From Candidatus Firestonebacteria bacterium RIFOXYD2_FULL_39_29 (GTDB lineage Bacteria; Oederibacteriota; D2-FULL-39-29): DNA of 57,757 nucleotides. Both the position numbers and the translations under genes were made by a program. This document shows, piece by piece, positions 14,715 to 35,262 of the stretch; position 1 is the stretch's first letter, and each line of letters begins with the position of its first letter. Under the pieces are notes generated by a model that was given only the letters and a program-made list of their open reading frames with translations, did not search any database and was not told where the DNA came from. Where the stretch lies: assembly GCA_001778375.1 (NCBI GenBank), contig MFGV01000034.1, positions 1 through 57,757 on the forward strand, given 5' to 3'.

Positions 14715-17700
14715 TCACCAAATAAATTTGCGAATATATAATGCTCCTGAACTTACATCCACACGGATAAAACCAACTCCTATTGATTTTGATGCGTCAC
14801 CGTTACTAACAGAGAAAGTAACATTATTTTTCATGGAGTTAAGATCATATCCTATGTTTCTTATCCGCATAATTGTCTTTTCAGGCAGGCCTTCAGACCT
14901 GAATACTTCCTTTCCTTCCACAATTATTGAAACCGGCCCGGTTGTTCCTTTAAGAGCACAGACCCCCAGATCTATCCAAACGCGATTATAATAGCTGGGA
15001 ACTTTTTTAGCATCAACATCAATAGAAATCTCTCTTTTGGAATTTGGAGGAATTTCCGCAAGGTCAGTTTCTATAGTCGGAAGCTGACCCGAAGCAATCA
15101 CCGGTATTTTCAGAAGCTTTACAGATTCTTTCCAAAGTTTCAGACCGGGACTGAAAGGTTTTGGAAGTTTTCCATCCACCCCCGGAGCTATCCTTGCCAA
15201 TGTAAAATCGGATTTAATGTCTATCATTTCCGAGTCAAATTTAATCTCCTCCAAGGGTTTGTCATTTTGCACCAGACAAAGGTAGGCAACATGAGTTGTT
15301 CCTTCCCCTTTTCCCCCTACCTCCATCTTAAATTCACCGCCTTTTACCTCAACGGGTATATCAACGAAACTTACAGTTGTATTTTTTTCCAAAGTCAAAT
15401 CAATCTTTTTCTTGCCGCCTTCAAACTCCAAATGCTGGTTTCCGCTTTCCCCCCAGACATGACCGACTCCGAGAGAAACCCTGTACAGACCGTCAGAAGT
15501 TTTGATCTTGAAAGCATTTCTTGTTTTATTAGGAACTGCAACGGTGTTATTATCAAGCGGCCTCATATAACCGGAGCCCCTTGTAACCGTAACCTTATTT
15601 TCCCAGCCAAAGCCGGCTGTTTCGCTATACACTTCATTGGAAACAATATATCCCAAAGGGGATTCGACATTGGCAGGCGCGAAATTAAATTTAAAAACCC
15701 CTCCGGGATTAACCGTTATTTGTATTTTTTCCGCGGCCTCAATACCATTACTATCCTTTATTCGAAGCATTACAGAATGCAAGCCTTCCTTAAATTGTAT
15801 GGTATCCGCTGCTTTATTCGATAATACTTTTACTTTACCCTTTTCTTCTTCCGTCCATTCATACTCAACAATATTTGCGCCGGTTACCGTTGATTTTGTC
15901 CCGTCAAGCTTCACACCGGCATAATCTTTTCCGCTCATTACGCTCACAACCACATCTTTTCCTGCAACAGCTGTCGGATATCTTTTACCGGTCAGATATC
16001 CGTGCATTGCAAACCTGATCGGTTTCAGCGCGGTAATTACCAGACCCATATTATTAGTATCCGGAACAAAAAGCCCGTACCTCACCCCGCCCATAGTATC
16101 TATCAGACTTTGGACCGTATAACTTTCTTTTGGAATACCTTTAAATTTTGCAAATTTATTAAAACGATACTGTTCTAAAGAATTATAAAACGCGCGGTCT
16201 CCTGTTAGTCCATAAACATAATCAAGAAACCAGTCGGCAGTGTCATAATATTGCCTAAAATCAAGCGCATTTGCATTTTTCAAGACATATGCCGTTTTTA
16301 AAAGAGCTCTGACTACATCTTTATCTCCTGTAAGATTAGCGTATTCGATAAGAGGACAATACGCATCGTAAGTTAAGAAATAACTTGTAGGAAGACCTCC
16401 CTCTCCATATTTAGAAATATTCAGTTTGCCGTCAGTACCGATATCAACCGATCCCGCTCCATAATTCACTCCGATCCCGGCATCCAGAAGTTCTTCCAGA
16501 GCTTTTGCAAAAGGCTTGACAAACCATATATACTTTGGATCTCCCGTTGTTTCCCACATTAAAAACGCCGGCCAATTCATGGGTCCGCATTTACAGCTTA
16601 TATTTATTTTGCTCTTATCTAAAATGGCGGATCTTCCATAAGCAGGCTTGTTTATCCAATCAATTGCCATTTTAAGTCCGTCCCCAATCACAAGATCACC
16701 CGTCGCCCAATAATAATAGATTATATCCGTAATAGGCGCTTGTCTGGGTTCTCCGCCGCCTCTCCAGTGAACCTGATTATGCCTTGTAAAAACACCATAA
16801 TCAGTTTGTTCTATTTTCCCTCCGCCAATGTGTTCAAAATCAATATCAACTTTATGCTGAAGAAAAGTACTGGCAAAATCAAAATATTTTCTCGTATTGG
16901 TCATGAAAGCATGAGACAAGAATGCCTGACCGTAATGATTACCGCTGCACCAGCCGACACCTCCTGAAAATATATGAGGCAGTGTATCACCCTCCGGCTT
17001 ATTAGCGGATGCGTTAATATCACCAAAATCAATGAATCCGTACCATCTGTTAACATCCCGGGTAACAAATGCCCAGTCAAAAACAACACTTGCCGCATTT
17101 TTAATATTTTGGAACTCAGGAGCCGCTTCATATGAAGGAAATATTCCGTAAACTCCGGTTGAGGCGAAGTATTCCGGATCGCAAAATATTAAAGGCATTT
17201 TATCCGTTGCCTTTCCAAATGTACCGGTATCAGGAGAACCTTCTTTGGTAACATCAAAATTATAAATCACTGTATGGGTTTTTTGAATACCCCTGGCATC
17301 ACAGGACCCGTCACCGTCATAATTACCGGTTAATTTACTCACAAAATATCCCGGGGCTCCCTTTGTACACGGTCGAAGAGCCGATAATTCAGCGGATATA
17401 TCACCCGTTCTATATCTTAAGTCCAAAAACGCTCCCTCTTCCGGTCCAAATAAAGCCGTTTTTAACCTTAAGTCATTATTTGCGCCGGCAACACTGAATG
17501 CAACCGGGTATGTTTTCCAAAGATCTTTAACCGCAGCTGCAACATTTCCTGTTTTAGCCCAGCCCTCAGATCTTCCTGCTGCAGGTTTTGAATCAAGGAT
17601 ATAATTTTGATCGTCTTTTTGGACAAAAGAAATTCCTTCAACCGGTTTGCCGTCTTCCATACCAAAAGACATTTTTGATTTTCCTTCGGAACCTGCCAAA

Positions 17701-18611
17701 GGAAGATCGAGCCCGTAACTTCTTATATGATCTTTTATTGAATATCCCGCATAAATCAGAGAATGATTTATTTTCACTAACGGAGAATCCGCATAAGCCG
17801 TAATAAACATTTTAACCGGATGTATTACCGTTTTTGTTTTGAAATTACCTTCCACTGCAACTGTTACCTGAATAGTATTTTTTTCTACAACTTTAACCGA
17901 ATCCACCGAGAAATCAGCGCCCAGTATTTCTTTTGACGGCTCGCTTTCACTCAGCAAAACATTCATCCTTGTATCTGCTGACATTGCTTCAGGAGATACT
18001 ACCGAAGATAGCGAATAATTCAAGAAACATCCCAGGCCTTTCCCTTTTGGCGTAACAGCAGTCGCACCCTTCTTTATATCCGACAGAAATTCCGCTTTCT
18101 TGCCAACTGAAAACGAAATAGCCCCTGTTGACACCGATATACTGTCTTTACCCTCTTCAACTTTAAGATTACTGCTTTTCAAGGGTTTAACATCCGTTCC
18201 GTAAGTTAATACGTAACCCGCCTGCCCTGATTCCGGAATATTGGATAGGAACTCAAGAAGGAGCCACTTTACTTCCCCTTCAGGCCAGTAACAGGTTGGT
18301 TTCCCGCATACAGAGACCGGCTTGCCTTCGGCCGTTTTTAATGAAATATTTTCTGCACTTTTTAGTTCTCCTCTTGGTATAGGCACGGCAAATCTTACCG
18401 GCCAGTTTTTTCTCACACCGCCGATATTTCCCCCGTCCACCGTTAATTTCAGCTCTTTTGATTTTACCGGAGAGTGTCTTTCTATAACAGGGATTTTAAT
18501 CTTATTAACATCCGGAATCGTTCCCGGAACCGGACATTTAGCCTCAACACAGGCAACTCCAACACATACCAAAAATGAAATCATACATCTTAACGAAAAA
18601 CTTTTATACAT
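14715..18611 (-). CDS. Secreted RIFT-barrel / exo-rhamnogalacturonan-lyase-like protein (PcRGLX/YetA type)
   Basis: A ~1298-residue exported protein with a signal peptide ending near ACVEA. The N-terminal ~100 residues after it resemble the RIFT-barrel domain of PcRGLX/YetA proteins (VDGG..GG..KNWPVRFAVPIPRGEL, then GEVKWLLLEF). A long central part rich in Trp, Gly and Tyr looks like an alpha/alpha-barrel carbohydrate-active module. Near residue 890-990 a PKD-like segment follows (VVSVMSGKDYAGVKLDGT...EYEW). After it comes a galactose-binding-like beta domain starting VFKFNFAP, of the sort attached to pectin-degrading enzymes. It probably degrades a plant or algal polysaccharide outside the cell. 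Start at 18611 follows GGAGG; the reading extends to 18647. Confidence 0.6.
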   Translation of the reverse strand: MYKSFSLRCMISFLVCVGVACVEAKCPVPGTIPDVNKIKIPVIERHSPVKSKELKLTVDGGNIGGVRKNWPVRFAVPIPRGELKSAENISLKTAEGKPVSVCGKPTCYWPEGEVKWLLLEFLSNIPESGQAGYVLTYGTDVKPLKSSNLKVEEGKDSISVSTGAISFSVGKKAEFLSDIKKGATAVTPKGKGLGCFLNYSLSSVVSPEAMSADTRMNVLLSESEPSKEILGADFSVDSVKVVEKNTIQVTVAVEGNFKTKTVIHPVKMFITAYADSPLVKINHSLIYAGYSIKDHIRSYGLDLPLAGSEGKSKMSFGMEDGKPVEGISFVQKDDQNYILDSKPAAGRSEGWAKTGNVAAAVKDLWKTYPVAFSVAGANNDLRLKTALFGPEEGAFLDLRYRTGDISAELSALRPCTKGAPGYFVSKLTGNYDGDGSCDARGIQKTHTVIYNFDVTKEGSPDTGTFGKATDKMPLIFCDPEYFASTGVYGIFPSYEAAPEFQNIKNAASVVFDWAFVTRDVNRWYGFIDFGDINASANKPEGDTLPHIFSGGVGWCSGNHYGQAFLSHAFMTNTRKYFDFASTFLQHKVDIDFEHIGGGKIEQTDYGVFTRHNQVHWRGGGEPRQAPITDIIYYYWATGDLVIGDGLKMAIDWINKPAYGRSAILDKSKINISCKCGPMNWPAFLMWETTGDPKYIWFVKPFAKALEELLDAGIGVNYGAGSVDIGTDGKLNISKYGEGGLPTSYFLTYDAYCPLIEYANLTGDKDVVRALLKTAYVLKNANALDFRQYYDTADWFLDYVYGLTGDRAFYNSLEQYRFNKFAKFKGIPKESYTVQSLIDTMGGVRYGLFVPDTNNMGLVITALKPIRFAMHGYLTGKRYPTAVAGKDVVVSVMSGKDYAGVKLDGTKSTVTGANIVEYEWTEEEKGKVKVLSNKAADTIQFKEGLHSVMLRIKDSNGIEAAEKIQITVNPGGVFKFNFAPANVESPLGYIVSNEVYSETAGFGWENKVTVTRGSGYMRPLDNNTVAVPNKTRNAFKIKTSDGLYRVSLGVGHVWGESGNQHLEFEGGKKKIDLTLEKNTTVSFVDIPVEVKGGEFKMEVGGKGEGTTHVAYLCLVQNDKPLEEIKFDSEMIDIKSDFTLARIAPGVDGKLPKPFSPGLKLWKESVKLLKIPVIASGQLPTIETDLAEIPPNSKREISIDVDAKKVPSYYNRVWIDLGVCALKGTTGPVSIIVEGKEVFRSEGLPEKTIMRIRNIGYDLNSMKNNVTFSVSNGDASKSIGVGFIRVDVSSGALYIRKFIW

Positions 18612-18735
18612 AATAACCTCCGGCGAATTTTTTATGTAGTTTAGCATCTATTATATTTGATAAACACAATGGCTTAACCTTATATTCCATGCCTACTATT
18701 ATACACGATATTGGAATTTTATCCATCCCTCGAGC

Positions 18736-31459: not shown

Positions 31460-32569
31460 TTATTTCCTGTACTTACTGCTTTTGCTTCTTCTGCTTCCAC
31501 TGCTTTTCTTGCTTTGTTTCGTTTCTTCTCCGAACTTCACTGCCACTGACACTCTATGCGCACTTCCCAAATCTCCGAATAAACTGAAGTTGTAATCAAG
31601 ACTGCAGATCATTCCGTCCAGGTTTTGTTTTACTCCGGCTCCTACGTTTACATTATTTACGTCATAGCCAATCCCATAGCTTCCGCGGACGCTTACAAAA
31701 TTATCATAGCAATACTCAGCGCCGAAACTTTCTACTGTTTTTGAACTTGCTAATATATAACTTCCGCCTAAGGCTACTGTCAGGTCATCATCGCTCATTA
31801 TTGAAAGTTTCGCGGACAATCCTAATCTTGCCAGCATCGGAGAGACATCTGATCCGACGTTTCCTCCGATATTGCTTAGTGATGCTCCGATACCTACTCC
31901 CTCTATTCTATATAATATTCCGACATCTCCCATTATCCCGTTTACACTGCTTCCGTCGATATCCTCTGAAGCATATTTCAAACCGGCTCCAACATTTAAA
32001 CTTTCTCCTAATTTATATCCAATCGAAAGACCGCCTGCTATATTATTCGGGTTAAAAGCTCCAGCTGTTCCGGAATATACTCCCGAAGTATCTTCAGTTG
32101 TTTTGGTTATACTCCCATAGTTAAGATAAATCACATAAGCTCCAAGTGTCATATTTTTTCCGGCAGGGATCACGCCTGCAGCGTACTCGTAGCCGGTTTC
32201 ACCTATGTATGCCAAATGCATGAGGGATATTTCCGGAGTTGTTAATCTGGCCAGACCTGCGGGGTTATAAAACGAAGCATTAGAATCATCAGCTAATCCT
32301 GCATACCCGTCTCCAATACTTGCTACTCTAGCTGAAGGTTTTATTTTTAGGAATTGTAAGCTTTCTGTTCCGGTGCCGGAAAGAAGTGGGGTTGATAGGA
32401 AAAAAACAAGAAAAATAACAGTAGTTGCTCGATTCTTGAGCCCGCCAATCTCTATGGAGGGAATCGAGCCATCCTGATGTCTTGCCCGCCAGTTCTTGGA
32501 GGAAATCAGGCAGCTACAAGATCTCGAGTTATTTTTATTTAGCTTGCGTTTACAGCACCAAGCACGCAT
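31460..32569 (-). CDS. PorV/PorQ-family outer-membrane protein
   Basis: About 369 residues. After the signal region the family opening is clear: LQFLKIKPSARVASIGDGYAGLADDSNASFYNPAGLA, followed by Gly- and aromatic-rich beta strands. PorV is an outer-membrane barrel that hands cargo to the type IX secretion machinery. The start at 32569 follows GGAGGAACG; the frame extends upstream to a TTG at 32611 inside the riboswitch leader. A ~99-bp palindromic element (32421-32517) is read in frame between the first residues and the hydrophobic core of the signal peptide (VIFLVFFLSTPLL). A basic Ser/Lys/Arg tail follows the last strand, which is odd for a barrel. First gene of the PorV-giant protein operon. 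Confidence 0.82.
   Translation of the reverse strand: MRAWCCKRKLNKNNSRSCSCLISSKNWRARHQDGSIPSIEIGGLKNRATTVIFLVFFLSTPLLSGTGTESLQFLKIKPSARVASIGDGYAGLADDSNASFYNPAGLARLTTPEISLMHLAYIGETGYEYAAGVIPAGKNMTLGAYVIYLNYGSITKTTEDTSGVYSGTAGAFNPNNIAGGLSIGYKLGESLNVGAGLKYASEDIDGSSVNGIMGDVGILYRIEGVGIGASLSNIGGNVGSDVSPMLARLGLSAKLSIMSDDDLTVALGGSYILASSKTVESFGAEYCYDNFVSVRGSYGIGYDVNNVNVGAGVKQNLDGMICSLDYNFSLFGDLGSAHRVSVAVKFGEETKQSKKSSGSRRSKSSKYRK
32421..32517. repeat. Palindromic repeat inserted in frame in the PorV signal-peptide region
   Basis: Outer ends GTAGTTGC and GCAGCTAC pair (7 of 8). Inside are two similar hairpins: GCTCGATTC/GAATCGAGC (9 bp) and CCTGAT/ATCAGG. Both have loops built on CCGCCA-n-GGAGG. The core CCGCCAATCTCTA recurs in the intergenic hairpin at 47207-47227, and the GTAGTTGCTC end recurs at 14540. 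The length is a multiple of three and leaves the frame open. Confidence 0.75.
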
Positions 32570-32623
32570 CGTTCCTCCTTGCTTCTTTCTAAAAGAGGCC
32601 CGTTCAGGCAATTAATCACTCCT

Positions 32624-32797
32624 AAGCGAGTCGGCAACCCGGCTATCCGTCACATGATTTACTTAAGTTTTTCTGCTATAAGTGTGAACTTTTCTACCCA
32701 ATCTCGTTAGCCTTACTTTCAGCATTCTCTTAAAGCATGTGCCGGACCTTTGGTTTTGCGCCCCCACCTTACGATGGGTTTACCCTTTCGGTTTCAT
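32624..32797 (-). promoter_or_regulatory. Cyclic-di-GMP-I (GEMM) riboswitch
   Basis: The minus-strand RNA reads AAAGGGTAAACCCATCGTAA, then GGTGGGGGCGCAAAACC, matching the GEMM-I core GGGCAAACC - P2 - GACGCAAAGCC. P2 is CCCATC/GGTGGG capped by the GNRA tetraloop GTAA. The 3' side, GGATAGCCGGGTTGCCGA, matches the family GGTAGC.GGGTTACCGA. The base equivalent to the guanine-recognising G20 is G, which fits c-di-GMP rather than cGAMP. P3 is unusually long: GTCCGGCACATG pairs with CATGTGACGGAT and encloses about 80 extra bases. It lies between a good promoter and the PorV ribosome site. A small stem, GCC-GGGC, followed by CTCTTTT may be part of the expression platform. Confidence 0.87.
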
Positions 32798-32810
32798 AAT
32801 TATTATGATA

Positions 32811-32839
32811 AGTATATTCAAATTTCGTATTTTAGGCAA
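32811..32839 (-). promoter_or_regulatory. Sigma70-type promoter for the riboswitch/PorV/giant-protein operon
   Basis: TTGCCT (32839-32834) and TATACT (32816-32811) are 17 bp apart on the minus strand. The expected transcription start, near 32804, is just before the riboswitch. It lies beyond the stop of the upstream regulator gene (32899), so the operon has its own transcript. Confidence 0.75.
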
Positions 32840-32898
32840 TAGGAGAAAACACTATTATAATAGTCATATTTGTTATATATTAGTTATTTTTCTGACTA

Positions 32899-35097
32899 TT
32901 AATATAATCTATATTCGGAAGGGGTTTTGTCTGTATGCTTTTTGAATAATTTACCAAAATATGTAATATCGGGATATCCGACCTTTACAGCCACTTCACC
33001 AATATTGTATCTTACATCCTTTAACAAGTCTTTTGCTTTTTCAATCCTTTTTTTGACTATATATTCTATTACTGTCATTCCGGTCTCATACTTGAATATT
33101 TTTTCTATATAATTAACACTCAATTTCATGTTTTTAGATATATCATTTAATGTTAAATCCTTATTAAAATTCCAATCGACATACTGCATAATATTTTCTG
33201 TTATTTTTTCATATACTTTATGTTTTTTGATTTTTTTCAGATCTTTTTCCAGTAAATTTAACGCGTCCTTGGGTGTTTTTTTCATCCTCATAACCGGAAA
33301 TATTCTGTTTTTTACAAGCAGAGATACTAATTCCACATTTTCTATTTCAAGCGGAAGACATTTCACATCTCTCAATATATTTGCTGCTTCACTGTAATAG
33401 GGTTTTTGCCGCAATATTTTACTGTCTGACCAGAATTCAACTATTGAAGGAAACGGATATCCGCCTTTGATTTCAAATTGGTGTGCTGTTTTTTTATCTG
33501 CAATAAACTTTAAAACTTTTTGCGCGGAAACCGGGTACTTTGCATTTTTACGGACAACAAATACCCTGCCGGATAATGAGCCTGCTCCACTTTTTGATTC
33601 ACTCATAGAAGGAACACCGGCAATCCATATTTTATTTTTTAAAACAATATCACGGAAAAGACTCGCCTGCCCTATCATAAATATTGATTTTCCTTCCCTG
33701 AAGGCCGTGTTTACTTTCCCCCGGCCAAGCAACGGTAGCTCTTTATTTACTATTTCATGCTTCCATATTAAATCCTGCATAAATGTTAATGCCTCTATGA
33801 TTTTTTCGTTCGAGACCGATATTTTTCCATTTTTATCATATATATTGCCGCCATTAGCCCAGACAAATATCATGAATGATTCAAAAAGAGATTTTGAATC
33901 ATCAGCATAGAACAATAAACCTTTAAGTGCCGGATCATTTTCTTTCCCCATGATATACTTTGAAGTTTCAACAACCTCTTTCCAGCAACGAGGAACTTCA
34001 CATTGATATTTTTGCAGCAGGTCTTTTCTGTAAAACAGGCAAGTAGAGGAAATGTCATCCGGAACACCGTACAATACGTCCTTATAACTGCAGGCTTCAA
34101 CTGCTTTATCAAAATAAATAGATTTGTTTGCTAGTCCTTCCAAAGGCATAAGCAGATCTTTTTTAACGTATTTTTGCACCTGATTTATACCAATGGTTAC
34201 AATATCCACATCAGCTTTTTCATTAAAAATATCATTTTCGGATTTTTCCAGATCAATAAAAGGAGTTGTTAGTATCTTCACATCCGAATAAACATCATTA
34301 AATTCTTTTATTGCCTCTTTAAAAATATTCATGAGCGACATTGAAACTGTAACTTTCGATAACTTTGATTCACGCAAAATTATATTTTTATTATTATTTA
34401 TTCTGGTTTTTATTTTTATGCCCGACTCATTAATATTCAATTCTCTTGCCCTGGGATCATACAGCATTCCTTTTGCCTTTAACACTCTGATCATTCTTAT
34501 GGAATTATCTTCGGCTTTATCCTGCTCCACCAGAACAACGATATCCGAAAGAGGAGGCAAAAAAAGATTGCTGATACCATAATCCTTTTGATCGTAATGA
34601 ATATTTGAAGTTAATACGGATGATATATTAAATTTTTTGATTTCATTGATTATAAGTTCTGCACAAACTTTAATTTTATTATTCCTGCAAGTATCAGGTA
34701 TCTCAGGAAAGCCGTCTATTACAAGCCTGCAATTATCATTTTTCCTAAAAATTTTGTTTAATTCCCTTAAGAGCCCGCTTATTTTTGAAATATGAGACCG
34801 TATCAAGATCAACTTTTTATTCTCTATGTATTTATTCCAGTTAATATCAAGATCTTTGAAATATTTAAGCGTGCGGAAAGGGTCTTCCGTCAAGGAGACA
34901 TAAATACATTTTTCATTCTCTTCCAACCCTGCCTTTAAAAATTGAAGCCCAAACAATGTCTTTCCGGTCCCGGATTGTCCTGCCAATAGTATAATACTGC
35001 CTTTTACCAGGTTTTTATTGAACATTTTATCAAAACCGGGCACTCCGGATCTTAAATTACTTTTTGCTTGCACTTTTTTCATCATATTTGTATTCAT
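32899..35097 (-). CDS. KaiC-like ATPase / solute-binding-protein / AraC fusion regulator
   Basis: A 732-residue protein with three fused parts and no signal peptide or membrane segment. Residues ~12-232: RecA/KaiC-type ATPase with Walker A GQSGTGKT (40-47), the acidic YVSLTEDP motif, and Walker B LVIDGF (125-130). Residues ~246-620: a family-1 extracellular-solute-binding-protein fold (ADVDIVTIGINQV, LYGVPDDISSTCLFYRKDLL, FVWANGGNIYDKNG, AFREGKSIFMIG). Residues ~630-732: AraC/XylS DNA-binding domain with both helix-turn-helices (LTLNDISKNMKLSVNYIEK; IGEVAVKVGYPDITYFGKLF). Likely a one-component cytoplasmic regulator sensing a sugar or oligosaccharide with ATP. It is divergent from the FecR gene. 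No clear Shine-Dalgarno precedes the ATG; Met5 and Met6 are alternative starts. Confidence 0.85.
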   Translation of the reverse strand: MNTNMMKKVQAKSNLRSGVPGFDKMFNKNLVKGSIILLAGQSGTGKTLFGLQFLKAGLEENEKCIYVSLTEDPFRTLKYFKDLDINWNKYIENKKLILIRSHISKISGLLRELNKIFRKNDNCRLVIDGFPEIPDTCRNNKIKVCAELIINEIKKFNISSVLTSNIHYDQKDYGISNLFLPPLSDIVVLVEQDKAEDNSIRMIRVLKAKGMLYDPRARELNINESGIKIKTRINNNKNIILRESKLSKVTVSMSLMNIFKEAIKEFNDVYSDVKILTTPFIDLEKSENDIFNEKADVDIVTIGINQVQKYVKKDLLMPLEGLANKSIYFDKAVEACSYKDVLYGVPDDISSTCLFYRKDLLQKYQCEVPRCWKEVVETSKYIMGKENDPALKGLLFYADDSKSLFESFMIFVWANGGNIYDKNGKISVSNEKIIEALTFMQDLIWKHEIVNKELPLLGRGKVNTAFREGKSIFMIGQASLFRDIVLKNKIWIAGVPSMSESKSGAGSLSGRVFVVRKNAKYPVSAQKVLKFIADKKTAHQFEIKGGYPFPSIVEFWSDSKILRQKPYYSEAANILRDVKCLPLEIENVELVSLLVKNRIFPVMRMKKTPKDALNLLEKDLKKIKKHKVYEKITENIMQYVDWNFNKDLTLNDISKNMKLSVNYIEKIFKYETGMTVIEYIVKKRIEKAKDLLKDVRYNIGEVAVKVGYPDITYFGKLFKKHTDKTPSEYRLY

Positions 35098-35121
35098 AGT
35101 ATAACAAAATTACAGACACGG

Positions 35122-35150
35122 TGTATACTTGGAATTTCCAATATATGCAA
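35122..35150 (-). promoter_or_regulatory. Promoter of the fusion regulator with operator-like palindromes
   Basis: TTGCAT (35150-35145) and TATACA (35127-35122) with a 17-bp spacer on the minus strand. The spacer contains the palindrome TTGGAA-A-TTCCAA (35129-35141). A second symmetric pair, CCAATA/TATTGG, spans 35138-35158. Such symmetry over the core promoter suggests a repressor site, possibly for autoregulation. Confidence 0.55.
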
Positions 35151-35199
35151 TGTATTGGATTTTACACTATTTTTGTGCGGTTATTCACCCAATTTGAAG

Positions 35200-35227
35200 T
35201 TGAAAAACCTGTATTTTATGTTATAAT
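35200..35227 (+). promoter_or_regulatory. Promoter of the FecR-domain gene
   Basis: TTGAAA (35200-35205) and a consensus TATAAT (35222-35227), 16 bp apart. The transcript would start about 29 bases before the ATG at 35263. Confidence 0.7.
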
Positions 35228-35262
35228 TCGTTATGAATATTATTAGTTTATACGGAGGCACT

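Follow-up and report, generated by a model that had tools for sequence, protein, structure and literature searches.

KaiC-SBP-AraC fusion proteins, a family of one-component regulators in Candidatus Firestonebacteria and their predicted target operons

What might a single protein do that joins a KaiC-like ATPase, a solute-binding-protein (SBP) domain and an AraC-type DNA-binding domain, and which genes might it control? The question is raised by a gene of Candidatus Firestonebacteria bacterium RIFOXYD2_FULL_39_29, lying in a stretch of 57,757 nucleotides that we refer to as the window. The first-pass annotation had described one cytoplasmic protein of 732 residues at 32899-35097, and we find an open frame at exactly those positions on the minus strand (Table 1). 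The three domains and the boundaries drawn for them are borne out by Pfam matches that all lie above the curated cut-offs [PF06745 KaiC, residues 16-230, E 1.7e-32; SBP_bac_8, residues 262-547, E 1.4e-21; SBP_bac_1, residues 258-536, E 1.9e-21; HTH_18, residues 654-730, E 1.5e-17], with an additional HTH_AraC match (E 8e-15) and with agreement from the NCBIfam search. Sequence matches in the PDB run in the same order from the N- to the C-terminus, namely KaiC, then MalE3 and the trehalose/maltose-binding protein, then AraC-type DNA-binding domains. The proposal that the protein is a regulator is supported. The proposed cytoplasmic location is supported as well, as the protein shows no hydrophobic stretch suggestive of a signal peptide or membrane span (top 19-residue hydropathy 1.19); the SBP domain is internal, between KaiC and AraC, and is free of an export signal or lipobox, and the immediate neighbours of the gene include no ABC permease gene. 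The start of the frame is provisional: paralogues begin near a 'LKRIKSGIPGLD' motif, and the first ATG has no clear ribosome-binding site ahead of it.

Table 1. Positions in the window of the fusion gene, its domains and the features downstream of it
Feature	Position	Strand	Evidence
KaiC-SBP-AraC fusion regulator, 732 aa	32899..35097	minus	one uninterrupted ATG-to-stop frame
KaiC/RecA-type ATPase domain, residues 13-232	34402..35061	minus	PF06745; motif alignment
Walker A GQSGTGKT	34957-34980	minus	motif alignment
Family-1 (SBP_bac_1/8) solute-binding-protein domain, residues 245-625	33223..34365	minus	Pfam, AlphaFold2, Foldseek
Predicted single helix from SBP C-terminus to AraC domain, residues 609-643	33169..33273	minus	AlphaFold2 full-length model
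AraC-type double helix-turn-helix DNA-binding domain, residues 650-731	32905..33150	minus	HTH_18, HTH_AraC
Candidate operator half-site 1, AACTAATATATAAC (tentative, AT-rich)	32872..32885	minus	direct repeat, offset 20, 11/14 in best 14-base window
Candidate operator half-site 2, GACTATTATAATAG, 12 bp upstream of -35 (tentative)	32852..32865	minus	direct repeat, offset 20
Sigma-70-like promoter TTGCCT-17-TATACT, between regulator stop and riboswitch	32811..32839	minus	9/12 consensus match
c-di-GMP-I riboswitch	32630..32794	minus	RF01051, 44.5 bits against a cut-off of 35
PorV/PorQ-family outer-membrane protein; likely start MRAWCCK ATG, 32569	31460..32611	minus	NF033709, E 1e-40; leader comparison
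Secreted/surface protein, 4136 aa	18952..31362	minus	PQQ-type propeller, Ig-like and OmpL47-type repeats, weak C-terminal CHU_C match
PcRGLX-like secreted protein, 1310 aa, with galactose-binding-like domain	14715..18647	minus	PF21346, E 2.5e-13; PF21345, E 9e-11

Distribution and common inheritance of the three domains

A search for the same domain order, which the first-pass annotation had called for, returned eight full-length copies in the source genome (3.0 Mb, 96% complete) and more in other genomes. The seven other copies in the source genome are 32-38% identical to the window copy, and one of them (C57, L026:7648-10518), with 956 aa and two tandem KaiC domains, lies upstream of an operon for PorV and a large protein in which no riboswitch was detected. 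A genome of the same genus, matching Candidatus Firestonebacteria RIFOXYA2_FULL_40_8, has at least seven full-length copies. More distant full-length members are found in genomes of the same order (G005, G008 and G006, the last interrupted by an internal stop codon) and in a genome from a different family of the phylum (G017). A search of 384 relatives shows triple fusions also in a phylum of two genomes (G465, G602) and in G497, whose KaiC part has diverged beyond recognition by Pfam. These counts are lower bounds, and they place the family in at least two further lineages outside the source phylum. Because the same three-domain order recurs in eight local copies and several other genomes, the fusion is not a frame-merging or assembly artefact.

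The trees of the separate KaiC, SBP and HTH segments give identical sister pairs, and for the one unsaturated pair (L025/L027) dN/dS is about 0.21-0.23 in each of the three domains, as under purifying selection. This implies that the three domains have been inherited and maintained together. We regard the KaiC-SBP-AraC proteins as an apparently new family of one-component regulators, unusual in their architecture, which recurs.

In the G006 copy (L035/L063 near 2216-2218) an in-frame TAA separates KaiC and the N-terminal part of the SBP from its C-terminal part and AraC, reflecting either a pseudogene or a sequencing error. Another genome of the phylum carries SBP-AraC fusions without KaiC (L054:7020-8639, L055:6903-8429), a simpler relative of the design. 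Several candidate members were set aside: in Paenibacillus (L070) what resembled an SBP-AraC fusion by coverage is two successive genes, for an AraC response regulator and then for an SBP, in Onishia (L136) the genes are likewise separate, the SBP matches of 698 and 808 aa in G004 carry no HTH fusion and begin like exported proteins, and an AraC fragment beside a riboswitch (G001:C200) lies on a cut contig and has no SBP match in its upstream part. A single-sequence scan of the genome contigs gave no match, and the scan of a viral collection gave only KaiC/RecA/DnaB-like matches.

A related arrangement, a KaiC-KaiC-SBP protein of about 880 aa without AraC, occurs once each in 23 of 291 Armatimonadota genomes. 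We examined 14 of its neighbourhoods, and in at least 11 of them a small conserved gene (about 130 aa) lies directly 5' of it, usually overlapping it; the product of the small gene has a winged-helix-like sequence pattern by eye and no Pfam match, and shows profile similarity (probability 88.6%) to the product of a small gene ahead of a stand-alone KaiC gene in Firestonebacteria. The pairing of an AraC-less protein with a winged-helix-like gene fits a design whose output is DNA binding. The stand-alone KaiC and its preceding small gene are kept between two Firestonebacteria (L029:4973-6149, L059:1132-2365). The Armatimonadota pairs (L201-L214) often adjoin GH2, DUF1559-type pilin and Gfo/Idh/MocA genes, and at one locus (L202:9270-15266) the KaiC-KaiC-SBP gene is followed by genes for a receiver, a CheA-like kinase and another KaiC, a set that suggests a phosphorelay variant.

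The binding-protein and ATPase domains

A two-lobed binding-protein fold of the middle segment had been named in advance as the feature on which the annotation would stand or fall, and AlphaFold2, given an alignment of 43 sequences, predicts that fold for residues 238-632 with a mean pLDDT of 89.8. The best Foldseek matches in the PDB are MalE3 with maltose (6dtq, TM 0.83/0.84), the trehalose/maltose-binding protein (1eu8) and SmoF (7nbz), with TM values of 0.83-0.86 across the three. The residues that contact the glycoside in the Thermus alpha-glycoside-binding protein are replaced (D118 by S350, W287 by R511, and R356 by a residue other than Arg), and two positions past the D118 site most genus-level paralogues have Arg or Lys and the window copy has Thr. 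Given these replacements, a plain maltose-type sugar is an unlikely ligand, and the actual one may carry a charge. The carbohydrate-type ligand of the first-pass annotation is left with the fold and the gene context to support it, and it is from these that we infer it.

The replaced Asp, Trp and Arg, together with the move of the domain out of the compartment in which such proteins normally work, could also mean that the SBP domain is a degenerate module for dimerisation or docking and that the regulator answers to the ATP level, a partner protein or another cue. We think this improbable, since the complete two-lobed fold is predicted at high confidence, a YRKDLL core is retained, the domain is under purifying selection, the gene context is repeatedly one of carbohydrate genes, and the diversification of the paralogues suggests that their ligands differ.

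The KaiC domain of the window copy keeps the Walker A motif, the Walker B Asp D128 (LVIDGF) and K207, and has T70-E71 in place of the KaiC catalytic EE pair and Lys at the arginine-finger position. With Thr in place of the first Glu, ATP binding is likely the better supported activity, ahead of hydrolysis. One paralogue (C39) has a damaged P-loop, GHFGTDKK; judged from these motifs, hydrolysis may be slow or lost in some copies, and some members of the family may do without ATP. The Armatimonadota KaiC domains retain the EE pair. KaiC homology might invite comparison with a timing or clock protein, a reading that is hardly credible here: the window copy has one KaiC domain, not two as in the KaiC clock proteins, it lacks both the phosphorylation-site Ser/Thr pair (S431/T432-type) and the first catalytic Glu, and KaiB is absent from the source genome.

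A more serious alternative is a conventional AraC-type regulator in which KaiC is a constitutive oligomerisation scaffold, ATP carries no signal and the SBP domain is the sole sensor. The loss of the first catalytic Glu in genus-level copies, the broken P-loop of one paralogue, the usual Lys at the arginine-finger position and the occurrence of KaiC-less SBP-AraC proteins in one genome (G014) all agree with it. Nevertheless, Walker A and the Walker B Asp are retained in nearly all genus-level copies, the KaiC domain is under purifying selection, and KaiC stays with the SBP in several lineages and is doubled in C57 and in the Armatimonadota, where EE is intact. On balance we consider this alternative the less likely, and in our reading, as in the first-pass annotation, the KaiC part would mediate oligomerisation and sense the state of ATP.

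The adjoining operon and its predicted control

The regulator had been placed between a c-di-GMP-controlled surface operon and a FecR gene, and both neighbours are confirmed, the former by its RF01051 riboswitch and the latter by PF04773 (E 4e-14). On the strand of the regulator and 3' of it follow a promoter-like site, the riboswitch, and the genes for PorV, the 4136-aa protein and the PcRGLX-like protein. The last of these has all three PcRGLX domains and matches PDB 5xq3 (E 1.1e-18), PcRGLX itself, a fungal rhamnogalacturonan exolyase. Its only other close homologue in the genome, 64% identical, is on contig C20 and starts about 250 bp past the stop codon of another family copy.

Seven c-di-GMP-I riboswitch matches are found in the source genome, three of which, including that on C81, are below the gathering score. 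Three of the seven lie 3' of a family copy on the same strand, at distances of about 105 bp in the window (C34), 210 bp on C38 and 290 bp on C81, compared with a chance expectation of about 0.003 (for 7 matches, 8 genes and a reach of 300 bp on both strands of 3.0 Mb), although the leader sequence is itself repeated and the adjacencies may therefore not be independent. The remaining riboswitches lie ahead of a PilB-type operon, a response-regulator gene, a further PorV cassette and one unassigned gene. The leader, GGAGGAACGATGCGTGCTTGGTGCTGTAAATGCAAGC (MRAWCCK..., window 32540-32580, minus strand), is nearly identical after c-di-GMP-I riboswitches at many loci of two genomes (L023, L026, L230, L231, L233, L235 and L236 besides the window). 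It is also seen where no riboswitch was detected (C57) and before a gene other than PorV (C78, with a stop soon after), and it is possibly a conserved expression platform or a leader peptide.

Elsewhere, the copies and their relatives neighbour genes for GH28, GH123, GH42-like, polysaccharide deacetylase, enolase-superfamily, GH57, GDE_C, sulfatase/phosphodiesterase-like, beta-helix, GH2 and Gfo/Idh/MocA proteins. The carbohydrate gene setting is consistent across the unrelated lineages that carry the family. Paralogues C86, C25 and C39 have no obvious carbohydrate gene alongside. Several contigs end near family genes, so that downstream operons are visible only in part.

Two regions, 35098-35262 and 32800-32900, had been proposed as DNA-binding targets and are plausible; we favour as a candidate the promoter immediately 3' of the gene, which falls within the second region. 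Promoter-like matches of its grade are common by chance (18 found in the region against 12.8 expected), and sites placed similarly follow the C20, C57, C81 and C38 copies. We scanned the sequence upstream of the best promoter-like site of each family gene for direct repeats, in 14- and 18-base windows. Of the offsets from 11 to 40, 20 and 21 (and also 11) are the most enriched (z about 2.4-3.2), with a maximum barely above the 95% limit of shuffled sequence and so marginal after multiple testing; clear individual repeats are those of C57 (12/14), C34 (11/14) and C20 (11/14). The sites of AraC/XylS regulators are direct repeats spaced by about 21 bp and adjoining the -35 element. The resemblance of the present repeats to such sites is suggestive, and we regard them as candidate operators in AT-rich DNA.

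The full-length AlphaFold2 model (pLDDT 88.4) has a pTM of 0.68, and the relative placement of its three domains is therefore unreliable. Locally, the AraC region is a helical bundle, and the helix that joins it to the end of the SBP domain has block pLDDT values of 85-97.

The genes adjoining the regulator (riboswitch, PorV, giant surface protein and lyase-like protein, with a lyase homologue beside the C20 copy) indicate its likely role. Our preferred reading, to which we give a probability of roughly 0.58, is that the protein would sense a ligand in the cytoplasm and activate polysaccharide and surface operons, with ATP-dependent assembly provided by its KaiC domain; the ligand, the role of ATP, the target and activation itself are the presumptive parts of it. 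Under this reading, a small molecule from polysaccharide breakdown, here perhaps a pectin or rhamnogalacturonan product, would bind in the cleft of the SBP domain, and closure of the cleft would be passed on through the helix that the AraC domain shares with the end of the SBP domain. Subunits would be assembled by the KaiC domain, with ATP bound, so that several AraC domains could engage direct-repeat sites upstream of the -35 element of the promoter that follows the regulator's own gene. From there the operon for PorV, the giant surface protein and the rhamnogalacturonan-lyase-like protein would be transcribed, with its leader gated by c-di-GMP. More generally, the family probably switches on adjacent genes for plant-polysaccharide breakdown.

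A wider and tentative proposal is that the KaiC-SBP-AraC proteins and the Armatimonadota pairs of KaiC-KaiC-SBP and winged-helix proteins form an unrecognised class of bacterial signal integrators, in which a KaiC ring would read ATP, the cytoplasmic SBP domain would read products of polysaccharide breakdown, assembly on DNA would switch polysaccharide and surface operons, and c-di-GMP would be a second gate in Firestonebacteria. If these readings hold, KaiC-type ATPases, familiar from clocks and from signalling in archaea, serve in bacteria to assemble sugar-responsive transcription factors as well, and binding proteins of the periplasmic type have moved into the cytoplasm in company with an ATPase. 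Nutrient sensing and c-di-GMP appear to meet on one operon in an AND-type arrangement. For candidate phyla whose record is largely metagenomic, the family offers regulators and targets of polysaccharide use that can be tested.

Comparison with known systems

KaiC-like ATPases have been described as signalling hubs fused to REC, PAS and HalOD1 domains in narrow, lineage-specific fusions (PMC5847659, citing Makarova 2017, in the part available); that part concerns archaea and mentions no fusion to an SBP or AraC domain. In the CuaD-CuaS-CuaR three-component system a sugar SBP regulates cellulose use via a kinase (PMC10384115), but there the SBP is extracellular, the histidine kinase is in the membrane and the response regulator is separate, whereas the fusion is one soluble protein. 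MalE3 (6dtq), TMBP (1eu8) and SmoF (7nbz) share fold and sequence family with the middle domain of the fusion; unlike it, they are exported and linked to transporters, and their glycoside-contact residues are conserved. The first-pass annotation knew of no regulator combining KaiC, SBP and AraC, and our literature search, with most subscription papers outside its reach, likewise turned up neither a KaiC-SBP fusion nor the triple fusion. Cytoplasmic sensors of the binding-protein type and KaiC-like signalling ATPases are known separately, and their combination is apparently undescribed.

SgrR and Btr/YbbB are cytoplasmic regulators in which a sensor with a binding-protein fold is fused to a DNA-binding domain, of the AraC type in Btr, and the Btr family (NF049932) appeared in our NCBIfam search. 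They differ from the fusion in that their HTH is N-terminal, their binding domain belongs to another cluster, and they have no KaiC ATPase. There is a functional analogy with MalT, a STAND-class activator dependent on ATP and maltotriose, in which ligand and ATP drive assembly on repeated promoter sites, as is proposed for the fusion. Both designs unite an NTPase, a sugar-sensing domain (presumptive in the fusion) and an HTH in one cytoplasmic protein. The STAND NTPase, TPR-type sensor and LuxR-type HTH of MalT have no homology to parts of the fusion, and no STAND family is among the Pfam matches of the 732-aa protein. The best explanation of this likeness would be convergence, with the MalT-like logic having arisen again from unrelated parts.
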